A stretch of DNA of 64,000 bases from Chryseobacterium sp. G0162. GTDB taxonomy: Bacteria; Bacteroidota; Bacteroidia; Flavobacteriales; Weeksellaceae. Both the position numbers and the translations under genes were made by a program. Position 1 is the first letter of the stretch, and the number at the start of each line of letters is the position of its first letter. The stretch lies in assembly GCF_003815715.1 (NCBI RefSeq), contig NZ_CP033922.1, positions 1,248,501 through 1,312,500 on the forward strand, read 5' to 3'. Below are positions 25,368 through 29,548 of the stretch, one piece after another. The notes under the pieces are model-generated. The model saw nothing but the letters and a program-made list of their open reading frames with translations, was not told where the DNA came from and made no database searches.

Positions 25368-25452
25368 GGAGGGTTGCCAGAGTGGTTAATGGAGCAGTTT
25401 GCTAAACTGTCGACGCGAAAGTGTCGCAAGGGTTCGAATCCCTTACCCTCCG
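25368..25452 (+). tRNA. tRNA-Ser(GCT)
   Basis: 85-nt class II tRNA. The acceptor GGAGGGT pairs with ACCCTCC, and the anticodon loop TTGCTAA gives GCT. It has a long variable arm and the T-loop GGTTCGAATCC. The discriminator is G and CCA is not encoded. It is first in a Ser-Pro-Arg array. Confidence 0.96.
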
Positions 25453-25466
25453 CACTCTATATATCT

Positions 25467-25541
25467 CGGGGCGTAGCGTAGTCCGGTCATCGCGCCTGGT
25501 TTGGGACCAGGAGGTCGCAGGTTCGAATCCTGCCGCCCCGA
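25467..25541 (+). tRNA. tRNA-Pro(TGG), copy 1
   Basis: 75 nt. The acceptor CGGGGCG pairs with CGCCCCG, and the anticodon arm CCTGG-TTTGGGA-CCAGG reads TGG. Two identical copies follow at 29114 and 29381. Confidence 0.96.
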
Positions 25542-25582
25542 CTTTTTTAATGTGCTTATTATAAGCGAGAATCAACTTCTAA

Positions 25583-25656
25583 GGGTGCGTAGCTCAGCTG
25601 GATAGAGCATCTGCCTTCTAAGCAGACGGTCAAAGGTTCGAATCCTTTCGCGCTCA
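25583..25656 (+). tRNA. tRNA-Arg(TCT), copy 1
   Basis: 74 nt. The acceptor GGGTGCG pairs with CGCGCTC through G-U wobbles, and the anticodon arm TCTGC-CTTCTAA-GCAGA reads TCT. Two identical copies follow at 29200 and 29468. Confidence 0.96.
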
Positions 25657-25693
25657 CAAAACCTCATCATTTTATGGTGAGGTTTTTTGTTTT
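25657..25693 (+). terminator. Terminator of the first tRNA array
   Basis: AAAACCTCATCA and TGGTGAGGTTTT form a stem followed by a T-rich tail, directly after tRNA-Arg. Confidence 0.85.
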
Positions 25694-25754: not shown

Positions 25755-25796
25755 CGGTTAAAGGTTCGAATCCTTCTGCGATTACAAAACCTCATT
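25755..25796 (+). repeat. Degenerate tRNA-Arg 3' end fragment
   Basis: GGTTAAAGGTTCGAATCC followed by TTCTGCG and ACAAAACCTCAT repeats the T-arm, acceptor end and terminator start of the tRNA-Arg at 25637-25670, with a few changes and no 5' half. It marks the left side of the island carrying the defensin-like peptide. The rest of 25797-26017 shows no gene. Confidence 0.7.
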
Positions 25797-26017: not shown

Positions 26018-26025
26018 TATATTTG
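26018..26025 (+). promoter_or_regulatory. -7 box of the defensin-like peptide gene
   Basis: TATATTTG is an exact TAnnTTTG match. It predicts a start near 26031, leaving a leader of about 24 nt before the GTG. No clear -33 element is seen. Confidence 0.6.
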
Positions 26026-26054: not shown

Positions 26055-26249
26055 GTGAAAACATTCAAAAAACAACACAGTGCTCTAAAGAGAAATGAAT
26101 TGAAAACTATTTTAGGAGGAACCTTACCAAATCAATGTATTCCACGATTTTGTAGAGATTTATGTAAGGAGCAAGGTTTTGAACAAGGAGGTTGTGACCC
26201 TAACGGACTATGCTTATGTGGTCCGTTCCCAAACCCAAATGACTTGTAA
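26055..26249 (+). CDS. Double-glycine-leader peptide with CS-alpha-beta (defensin-like) cysteine pattern
   Basis: 64-aa precursor starting at GTG. Residues 1-22 form a bacteriocin-type leader (LKRNELKTILGG at 11-22) that should be cut after Gly22 during export by a C39-peptidase ABC transporter. The predicted 42-aa core has six cysteines at 28, 33, 37, 47, 53 and 55: C-x4-C-x3-C-x9-C-x5-C-x-C. From the second Cys on this is exactly the spacing of insect defensins, including a gamma-core-like G-G-C-x5-C. The core is net acidic (about -2), unlike most defensins, so a killing role is not assured; signalling or a protease-inhibitor role is possible. It has its own promoter and terminator. No exporter or immunity gene is next to it. 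Confidence 0.75.
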   Translation: MKTFKKQHSALKRNELKTILGGTLPNQCIPRFCRDLCKEQGFEQGGCDPNGLCLCGPFPNPNDL

Positions 26250-26275: not shown

Positions 26276-26312
26276 ACAAAAGCCTTACAATTTGAATTGT
26301 AAGGCTTTTATT
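26276..26312. terminator. Bidirectional terminator, peptide gene and metallopeptidase
   Basis: AAAGCCTTACAA-tttgaa-TTGTAAGGCTTTT is a perfect 12-bp stem flanked by A-rich and T-rich runs, between two convergent genes. Confidence 0.85.
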
Positions 26313-26365: not shown

Positions 26366-27649
26366 CTATTTTTTAACCAGCACATAATTTCCATCAGTTT
26401 CATTTTTCTTTATTCCATATCCATCAGTCAGTTCAAGAGTCCAGCCATCACCTGATATCTTTCTACCTTCTGTTTTAGCAGGAATCGATATCGAAATCTT
26501 ATCCCAGTTTGAACTCATTAATGCTCCATTTTCAACGGTCAGAATTCCCCATTTATCAGTAACCCTGATATTGGGATATACTGTTCCTTTATCTTCAATC
26601 GGTATTATATTTCTTGGATCGAAAGAGACATTCATCTTTTCAAATTTTATTTCAAAATGGGGATTCTCTATAAATTTGGTTTTATATTCAGCAATGAGTT
26701 TTTTTGTTTTCTCTTCTCTTTTTGTTTCTTCCTCAGTTATTGCTGAGCCATTGTAATCCTCAGCTAATCTTTTAACAACCTCATCTAAATCACCAGCAAC
26801 TTTACTATTGAATACTTTGATAAAATAGTTGGTAAGATCTGTTTTTGCCGTGATTTTTTTATTCCATTCTTTATCTTTATTATAGAGTAAATACCCATAA
26901 ACAGGTACTGTGTGATAAGCAAATGATCGTACAAACGTTGCATTCTTAAAAAAATCATTAATTCCATCAACTAAAAAAGCAGCTGTCTGCGTCTTATCCC
27001 TACCACTTACTATTACCCCTGTAAACTCCGCAATTCCTTCATTGAGTTCCAGAAGATTTTCATTTGAACCTGAACCTTTGTAAAGACTATGTCTGAATTT
27101 CCTGAAAGTGAGTGCATTCGTAAGATGTTCCTGTAATTCTTTTTTTGAAGCAGATTTCAACGCTTTTTTCAAAGCTTCCAGTTCTAAACGAAGATAAATC
27201 CTACCTTCTTTCTGATCCAGGTGGTTATTTTCAACATTGTTTAGTTCAAAACCTAATGAGGGTTGTATGCGATGAAATGACTCATGAGCCAGCAAACCCA
27301 TTCTATTGTATTTATTTTTAGGAAGTGGAAGCATCATCATTGCCCATCTTTTTCCATTCCAGTTCACAGCCGTATTGGCAATATTAATTTTCTCAGGCAA
27401 AACTCCGGTATAAATAGTGCCATTAGCCTTTAAAATATCATTTTCATCAGCCTCATTGGCAAAAATTTCTCTTGTCTTTGGATCAATTAAAAGGAGAGGA
27501 CCATAGAGATCTTTATTCCAAAGTTCAATATTTCTTTTAGATTCGATTTTAAACTCATTATAAAAAATGGAAATACTATCATTTTTTTGTCCCGTTAGAT
27601 AGTGTCCGAACAGAGAGAACAATAGTATAAAAGTAGCAGTCTGCTTCAT
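26366..27649 (-). CDS. Secreted HExxH-containing putative metallopeptidase
   Basis: 427-aa exported protein; the signal peptide MKQTATFILLFSLFGHYLTG from the ATG at 27649 supports this start over an upstream in-frame ATG. At 122-126 HESFH is an HExxH zinc-peptidase motif in a hydrophobic context (RMGLLAHESFHRIQP). The next helix, with EGRIYLRLELEAL, offers a possible third ligand Glu, as in gluzincins. The C-terminal 60 residues look like a small beta domain (DKWGILTVENGALMSSNWDKI). No family name is certain. It shares an island with the defensin-like peptide and converges on it, so a link is possible but unproven. Confidence 0.75.
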   Translation of the reverse strand: MKQTATFILLFSLFGHYLTGQKNDSISIFYNEFKIESKRNIELWNKDLYGPLLLIDPKTREIFANEADENDILKANGTIYTGVLPEKINIANTAVNWNGKRWAMMMLPLPKNKYNRMGLLAHESFHRIQPSLGFELNNVENNHLDQKEGRIYLRLELEALKKALKSASKKELQEHLTNALTFRKFRHSLYKGSGSNENLLELNEGIAEFTGVIVSGRDKTQTAAFLVDGINDFFKNATFVRSFAYHTVPVYGYLLYNKDKEWNKKITAKTDLTNYFIKVFNSKVAGDLDEVVKRLAEDYNGSAITEEETKREEKTKKLIAEYKTKFIENPHFEIKFEKMNVSFDPRNIIPIEDKGTVYPNIRVTDKWGILTVENGALMSSNWDKISISIPAKTEGRKISGDGWTLELTDGYGIKKNETDGNYVLVKK

Positions 27650-27707
27650 AGTTAAGTTCTTTAATTGCACAGACTATTTATTGCGTTTATTGTAAGTGTC
27701 TGTATCA

Positions 27708-29113: not shown

Positions 29114-29188
29114 CGGGGCGTAGCGTAGTCCGGTCATCGCGCCTGGTTTGGGACCAGGAGGTCGCAGGTTCGAATCCTGCCGCCCCGA
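29114..29188 (+). tRNA. tRNA-Pro(TGG), copy 2
   Basis: Same 75-nt sequence as copy 1, anticodon TGG. It is followed after 11 bp by tRNA-Arg copy 2. Confidence 0.96.
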
Positions 29189-29199
29189 CTTTTTTCAAA

Positions 29200-29273
29200 G
29201 GGTGCGTAGCTCAGCTGGATAGAGCATCTGCCTTCTAAGCAGACGGTCAAAGGTTCGAATCCTTTCGCGCTCA
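29200..29273 (+). tRNA. tRNA-Arg(TCT), copy 2
   Basis: Same 74-nt sequence as copy 1, anticodon TCT. Confidence 0.96.
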
Positions 29274-29380
29274 CAAAAAGACTTACTGATTGATGTAAGT
29301 TTATTTATTTTAATTTTTGAAAGCATCTTGTTTTTTTAAAATTAAAACAATGAAGTAAAATTCATTAAAGATGACCTTAT

Positions 29381-29455
29381 CGGGGCGTAGCGTAGTCCGG
29401 TCATCGCGCCTGGTTTGGGACCAGGAGGTCGCAGGTTCGAATCCTGCCGCCCCGA
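29381..29455 (+). tRNA. tRNA-Pro(TGG), copy 3
   Basis: Same sequence as copies 1 and 2. Its upstream 30 bp (GAAGTAAAATTC-TTAA-GATGACCTT) repeats the flank of copy 2, which points to a tandem duplication of about 267 bp. Confidence 0.96.
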
Positions 29456-29467
29456 CTTTTTTTCAAA

Positions 29468-29541
29468 GGGTGCGTAGCTCAGCTGGATAGAGCATCTGCC
29501 TTCTAAGCAGACGGTCAAAGGTTCGAATCCTTTCGCGCTCA
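29468..29541 (+). tRNA. tRNA-Arg(TCT), copy 3
   Basis: Same sequence as copies 1 and 2, last tRNA of the array. Confidence 0.96.
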
Positions 29542-29548
29542 CTTTATA

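Follow-up and report, generated by a model that had tools for sequence, protein, structure and literature searches.

The window analysed here, a stretch of 64,000 nucleotides from the 5.28 Mb, single-contig genome of Chryseobacterium sp. G0162, carries on its forward strand a small gene (26055..26249, GTG start, TAA stop) for a precursor of 64 amino acids (aa) with a predicted defensin-like core. The first 22 codons (26055..26120, +) encode a double-glycine leader, MKTFKKQHSALKRNELKTILGG, and a cut by a C39 peptidase is predicted after Gly22. The 42-aa core (26121..26246, +) has six cysteines in the framework C-x4-C-x3-C-x9-C-x5-C-x-C (spacing 4-3-9-5-1 in the translation of 26055-26249), five residues before the first cysteine, a net charge of -2, and a predicted cysteine-stabilised alpha-beta (CS-alpha-beta) fold. 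An earlier note had described such a precursor, with its leader ending in GG and its core with this cysteine spacing, and coordinates and translation agree with it.

Double-glycine leaders have the consensus L-12, E-8, L/M-7, I-4, and GG at the cut. The window leader, with L-12, E-8, L-7, I-4, G-2, and G-1, conforms to this consensus of C39-exported peptides; among the aligned orthologues, position -8 is Asp in one row and the GG is displaced by one residue in two others (L009 and L010). The description of the leader as bacteriocin-type holds for the consensus residues and the GG, but the match to the NCBIfam model leader_Chryseo (NF047798) is weak (15.2 bits, cut-off 23.5), which makes the window leader an atypical example of the genus leader type. 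The same model is matched by ten of the 12 orthologue rows at E <= 1 (best 0.009). Eight other orthologues inspected within the genus start with ATG, and one database protein (P0004) has Val at the position of the window start, within a longer annotated frame. All 12 cores are acidic (-1 to -2), as had been claimed for the window core. The window core contains one Thr and no Ser, two orthologue cores contain neither, and the sum of Ser and Thr ranges from 0 to 6 per core.

The orthologue alignment (A1) comprises 12 rows, 11 of them distinct (P0005 equals L007). All 12 keep the six cysteines, Cys2-x3-Cys3, Cys5-x-Cys6, and Gly-X-Cys4, so homologues that retain the leader and lose the cysteine framework, which the earlier note had named as contrary to its proposal, were not seen among them. 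The six cysteines, the Gly at -2 and the Asp at +1 of Cys4, and CGPF count among the invariant columns; the loops vary.

A profile of eight cores gave nine strong and eight weak partial matches (E 0.004-0.09) in 173 genomes of the genus. In 320 family genomes, a threshold of E <= 0.01 gave the identical nine strong matches, with weak additions in G034 (15 positions) and G225 (a stop-containing stretch). In 395 class genomes, the window's own strong match and one weak match of 18 positions were found. A search for homologues in Bacteroidota had been called for in the earlier note; in these genus, family, and class genomes, strong matches occur within the genus only. A single-sequence search of the genus matched 55 of 148 genomes at E <= 0.1; beyond eight strong matches, these mostly reflect leader similarity. 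Protein-database searches returned four and six proteins, the named ones all from Chryseobacterium, and a search of genome contigs returned four loci, again all Chryseobacterium. There was no match to the peptide in plasmids, phages, or PHROGs, and none was confirmed in viral contigs.

The upstream region contains TATATTTG (26018..26025, +), a Bacteroidota-type -7 element; the consensus of this element is TAnnTTTG. It is kept in seven of eight aligned orthologous upstream regions, the eighth (G084) reading TATATTTA after gap closure, and the DNA farther upstream is divergent, which fits the proposal that the gene has its own promoter. Downstream, RNA folding identified a terminator-like hairpin followed by a T-rich tail (26278..26309, +). 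The 86-nt stretch with this hairpin folds at -18.5 kcal/mol (z -5.6), and none of 200 shuffled sequences folds equally well; this stability fits the strong terminator described earlier, but the hairpin is missing from the output of a simple terminator scan. NG86 estimates for eight orthologue pairs, a subset of all pairs, gave a nonsynonymous rate (dN) below the synonymous rate (dS) wherever dS was defined, one core comparison being undefined.

The gene is real and narrowly distributed. Sequence comparison indicates that its conservation as a gene is beyond chance, because strong matches occur in nine of 173 genus genomes and dN is below dS in the computed pairs. That the frame is spurious or unexpressed, a chance product near a tRNA cluster, might be suggested by its GTG start and by homologues that are annotated, where named, as hypothetical or uncharacterised. 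In-frame conservation in nine genomes, dN below dS, the conserved -7 element, and the stable hairpin make this extremely improbable and agree with the earlier view that the gene looks functional.

Predicted fold of the core

The CS-alpha-beta superfamily (cis-defensin or scorpion toxin-like) is defined by Cys2-x3-Cys3 and Cys5-x-Cys6 and features a Gly at -2 of Cys4 (PMC5234102). The AlphaFold2 model of the core has a helix (residues 8-18) followed by two strands (22-25 and 31-34), with a mean predicted local distance difference test score (pLDDT) of 80 and a predicted template modelling score (pTM) of 0.49. The model therefore shows the helix and two strands that the earlier note had proposed to look for, and it has structural neighbours of this fold: it superposes on 1r1g over 31 residues at 0.9 A, and matches in the fold search include lucifensin and drosomycin, several of the closest being potassium-channel toxins. 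From the second cysteine on, the spacing C-x3-C-x9-C-x5-C-x-C is exact in the alignment with 6px8, as claimed for insect defensins, and every one of the 12 rows has Gly-X-Cys4.

Profile searches point the same way. Among the 12 orthologue rows at E <= 1, Pfam Defensin-like is matched by 11, Gamma-thionin by nine, Toxin_3 by six, and Arthropod defensin by five; at that threshold, none of these four families finds a match in a control set (A3) of 46 further leader peptides from this genome. The set is what remains of 50 cysteine-containing double-glycine peptides once the window peptide itself and three whose leaders are longer and different are set aside. The NCBIfam model actinodefensin (NF038042) is matched by six of 12 rows at E <= 1, the best at E 0.0031, which corresponds to 18 bits against a cut-off of 65. 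When six cysteines are placed at random in a 42-residue core, the broad CS-alpha-beta pattern arises with P ~0.0013, and ~0.03 such chance patterns are expected among the 25 six-cysteine leader peptides of the genome.

Several observations weigh against this assignment. Foldseek with the core model gave no match at E <= 0.001, so the structural comparison with defensins that had been proposed as a check yields lucifensin and drosomycin but nothing at that level. The Toxin_3 (PF00537) match of the window peptide reaches 20.2 bits (E 6.8e-4), below the gathering cut-off of 21.5, and single control peptides match other toxin families comparably, such as Toxin_12 at 3.6e-4. Actinodefensin also matches two of the 46 controls at E <= 1, the better of the two at 0.002; both are tandem peptides of locus L041 with a similar cysteine framework. 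Cysteine spacing alone is weaker evidence, L041 having a CS-alpha-beta pattern as well, without the predicted fold. One profile match at the level of that Toxin_12 match proves little; it is the pattern across rows that counts, though the rows are related.

Locus L041 (~G000:C1:2645616-2646344) holds tandem leader peptides of the type C-x6-C-x3-C-x9-C-x8-C-x-C, one of which ends x5, x2. Two of its four peptides match actinodefensin weakly. They were not accepted as a second CS-alpha-beta family, as AlphaFold2 models them as two short helices (no structural search of this model was made) and they have no Gly at -2 of the fourth cysteine.

Taken with the controls, the prediction of a CS-alpha-beta fold, as in defensins and short-chain scorpion toxins, is supported for the window core. 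It could be that the cysteine framework is convergent and that the true fold or disulfide pattern differs, as the L041 family with its similar framework and no such predicted fold, the absence of a Foldseek match at E <= 0.001, the Pfam scores under cut-off, and the control matches of comparable strength would allow. Because the L041 family has a similar framework and is modelled as two short helices, the prediction for the window core is not forced by C-x3-C and C-x-C alone, and spacing, Gly-X-Cys4, predicted secondary structure, profile matches, and superposition concur; we regard a different fold as distinctly improbable. A convergent origin of the fold is quite possible and leaves the fold claim unaffected.

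Chromosomal slot, peptide repertoire, and candidate export machinery

The closest neighbours of the gene comprise tRNA genes as well as genes for an amidase-type protein, a nuclease, and an HExxH protein. Upstream lies a cluster of tRNA-Ser(gct), tRNA-Pro(tgg), and tRNA-Arg(tct) (25368..25657, +), and between it and the gene the 3' end of tRNA-Arg recurs with its flank in degenerate form (25755..25795, +; 41 nt, 88% identity to 25627-25667). Two tandem tRNA-Pro/tRNA-Arg pairs, with anticodons as in the cluster at 25467-25657, are found at 29114-29542. In the fetched stretches, a Ser-Pro-Arg tRNA cluster lies near the peptide in seven of nine carrier genomes; of the other two, G084 shows only Pro/Arg pairs and G024 no tRNA. 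In two relatives, GIY-YIG nuclease-type genes are located between tRNA cluster and peptide, at L006:1027-1317 and L008:2068-2358 and 2427-2717; the two L008 copies are similar to each other, and the domain is confirmed for the L006 gene only.

The convergent gene downstream (26366..27670, -) encodes a 434-aa protein with an HESFH (HExxH) motif and no Pfam family over cut-off. It is matched in 49 of 171 genus genomes (E <= 1e-20). A functional pairing with the peptide was rejected, because the protein occurs mostly in peptide-free genomes and is absent from one carrier (G005) and elsewhere in the genome in two others (G024 and G084). In G037, the HExxH gene begins within ~75 bases after tRNA-Arg with no peptide between, and in G014 the slot is occupied by a different four-cysteine leader peptide. 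Such a peptide lies beside the HExxH gene at L120:1230-1382 and L119:1255-1407, the L120 copy standing between tRNA-Arg and the HExxH gene, which is the slot of the window's defensin-like peptide. Such variation would agree with peptide cassettes being gained and lost at a site linked to tRNA genes.

The window peptide is one of many of its kind. We collected 50 cysteine-containing double-glycine peptides in the genome, 48 of which have an even number of cysteines (2, 4, 6, or 8) and whose cores are otherwise diverse; paralogues are included, so a binomial figure for the even counts overstates their significance. The collecting script applied a fixed leader pattern to fetched stretches, took cores with at least two cysteines, and missed at least one peptide (54 aa, L083:7500-7664). 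The peptides are spread genome-wide (G000:C1, loci L002, L003, L035-L064, and L082-L101). At E <= 10, the leader_Chryseo model matches this genome 80 times, with 45 matches over cut-off and the window peptide below it. Read most simply, these would be a set of secreted peptides with disulfide bonds.

No exporter adjoins the peptide gene. The earlier note had proposed a search for a C39-peptidase exporter elsewhere in the genome, and two were found. One belongs to a lantibiotic-type cluster with LanB- and LanC-like proteins. The other, ~0.5 Mb away (L083:3606-11549), lies in a cluster that encodes, in order, grasp-with-spasm enzymes, a VKOR-thioredoxin protein, a four-cysteine leader peptide, the C39 exporter, a six-cysteine leader peptide, and HlyD. 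Its maturases match GRASP_w_spasm at 346 bits (cut-off 230) and SPASM_w_grasp at 412 bits (cut-off 175), and it holds the sole VKOR match in the genome (E <= 0.01). All nine peptide-bearing genomes have VKOR-thioredoxin, four-cysteine leader peptide, and C39 exporter in this order, and in G168, a draft of 250 contigs, the VKOR-linked C39 exporter is the only C39 match found. Since the VKOR protein occurs in 158 of 171 genus genomes, the VKOR-C39 cluster is general genus machinery, and it is a candidate for oxidation and export of the window peptide in trans. The exporter would probably recognise the double-glycine leader, cut after Gly22, and export the core, and three disulfides (1-4, 2-5, 3-6) would likely form during export with the neighbouring VKOR-thioredoxin protein as oxidase.

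Possible function

We think it somewhat probable that the product of the gene is a secreted, bacteriocin-like mini-protein of CS-alpha-beta fold, exported and oxidised in trans, that acts on competitors. The role is proposed by analogy with the bacteroidetocins, which among tested systems come closest in anatomy; these GG-leader peptides are encoded together with a thiol oxidoreductase and a transporter of the C39 type (PMC6671954), and their target is BamA (PMC8546649). The bacterial defensin actinomycesin is a reported inhibitor of cell-wall biosynthesis (PMC8819291), and xanthusin-1 is inactive as an antimicrobial, the defensin group having many activities (PMC11561630). The KCXN motif of alpha-KTx channel inhibitors has a Lys before Cys4 (PMC11561630); every one of the 12 rows has Gly, Val, Ile, or Met at this position, and a KCXN-type channel blocker was rejected on this ground. 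With an acidic core, no KCXN lysine, and an inactive xanthusin-1, neither a classic cationic killer nor a channel blocker should be assumed. As its most probable role, the released 42-aa acidic core may attack competing bacteria at a specific target in the envelope and not through membrane disruption driven by charge.

With the same fold and export, the peptide could instead serve as a signal, as a public good, or as an effector directed at a host or another eukaryote. The acidity of all 12 cores, the inactivity of xanthusin-1 among defensins of many activities (PMC11561630), and the potassium-channel toxins among the closest structural matches would suit such a role, whereas the replacement of the KCXN lysine in every row speaks against it, and the patchy presence (nine of 173 genomes) and the different leader peptide in the G014 slot resemble a bacteriocin repertoire; we consider it rather unlikely. 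Modification in trans is a further alternative. A lanthipeptide was rejected, because the window core has a single Thr and no Ser and two orthologue cores lack both residues, leaving no way for lanthionine rings to take up all six cysteines in these cores; other orthologues have up to six Ser and Thr. A ribosomally synthesised and post-translationally modified peptide (RiPP) of another kind, with cysteine thioethers or acid macrolactones or macrolactams made, for instance, by grasp-with-spasm ATP-grasp and SPASM enzymes, would be in keeping with the clustering of the C39 exporter with GRASP_w_spasm and SPASM_w_grasp maturases and with the thioethers considered for SPASM-associated precursors (PMC8939145). 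Conservation, however, sits on the cysteines, Gly-X-Cys4, and CGPF, Ser and Thr are few, the core is recognised by profiles and by a fold predictor that had disulfide proteins in its training, and the radical S-adenosylmethionine (rSAM)-target leader model TIGR04149 is matched by one row of 12 only, at E 0.044. Such modification is improbable, and disulfides are favoured because 48 of 50 leader peptides have even cysteine counts and Ser and Thr are scarce. We thus favour, with moderate confidence, a targeted, disulfide-stabilised bacteriocin-like effector, whose antimicrobial activity we infer.

Related systems and implications

The predicted fold is like that of the short-chain scorpion toxins cobatoxin 1 and BmBKTx1 (alpha-KTx 19.1), and cobatoxin shares C-x4-C-x3-C-x9-C and C-x-C; the window core differs from them in x5 between C4 and C5 (x4 in cobatoxin), in having no Lys before C4, and in its bacterial double-glycine precursor. 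The spacing from the second cysteine on is shared with insect defensins and the venom peptide Dg3b (6px8), but the window core has Cys1 close to Cys2 (x4), a short n-loop, and an acidic charge. Insect defensin precursors use signal peptides, unlike the window's double-glycine leader.

Actifensins and actinomycesin (NCBIfam actinodefensin) are likewise bacterial and defensin-like. Actifensins have an ATP-binding cassette (ABC)-type cleavage site that is mostly GA and in two cases GG (PMC6989792); they differ in their actinobacterial hosts, their own operon with ABC genes, and proven activity. Bacterial defensins of classes I-V (Cardoso et al. 2024, PMC11561630) share the CS-alpha-beta core with GXC. 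Class I has a short n-loop and an N-terminal tail of 1-4 residues; the x4 n-loop of the window core fits and its five-residue tail does not, which places it outside the class. Bacteroidetocins (class IIf, Bacteroidales) are alike in their GG leader, 42-aa and likely disulfide-bonded core, C39-type exporter, and thiol oxidoreductase (PMC6671954), but they have four cysteines and an adjoining exporter, whereas the window peptide has six, a predicted defensin fold, and its putative exporter elsewhere. The bacteroidetocin layout of an own exporter, a membrane protein, and mostly a thiol oxidoreductase alongside is absent from the window locus. The leader_Chryseo peptides (NF047798) share GG leader, cysteine-rich core, and genome with the window peptide, and the N-terminal half of the window leader differs from theirs, in line with its score below cut-off.

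CS-alpha-beta peptides are described from Proteobacteria (myxobacteria above all), Acidobacteria, and Actinobacteria (PMC11561630, PMC8819291). The 2024 survey, which spans these phyla, was filtered for signal peptides and lost the actifensins in that filter; because it required predicted signal peptides, double-glycine precursors would be missed (PMC11561630). The terms Bacteroid-, Flavobacteri-, and Chryseobacterium do not appear in its main text. In the passages of open-licence papers searched, we found no defensin from Bacteroidota and no double-glycine-leader defensin in Chryseobacterium. This agrees with the earlier note, which named no such peptide with this leader type from Flavobacteriia. 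Bacterial defensins as such are known and include the actifensins with their ABC-type cleavage sites. As far as the literature was searched, the Bacteroidota host, the canonical GG leader, and the acidic core are new.

More tentatively, a single leader type that precedes dozens of diverse disulfide-rich cores in each genome, with a common VKOR-C39 machine for their oxidation and export, may amount to a venom-like arsenal, in which a defensin fold has arisen or been captured as the first acidic CS-alpha-beta bacteriocin of Bacteroidota with a double-glycine leader, directed at a specific target. If true, the occurrence in Bacteroidota of a defensin fold behind a C39-type leader would widen the bacterial range of this fold, and the core offers a natural acidic case in which fold and charge can be told apart. 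The finding also points to a general VKOR and C39 machine for many disulfide peptides in Chryseobacterium.
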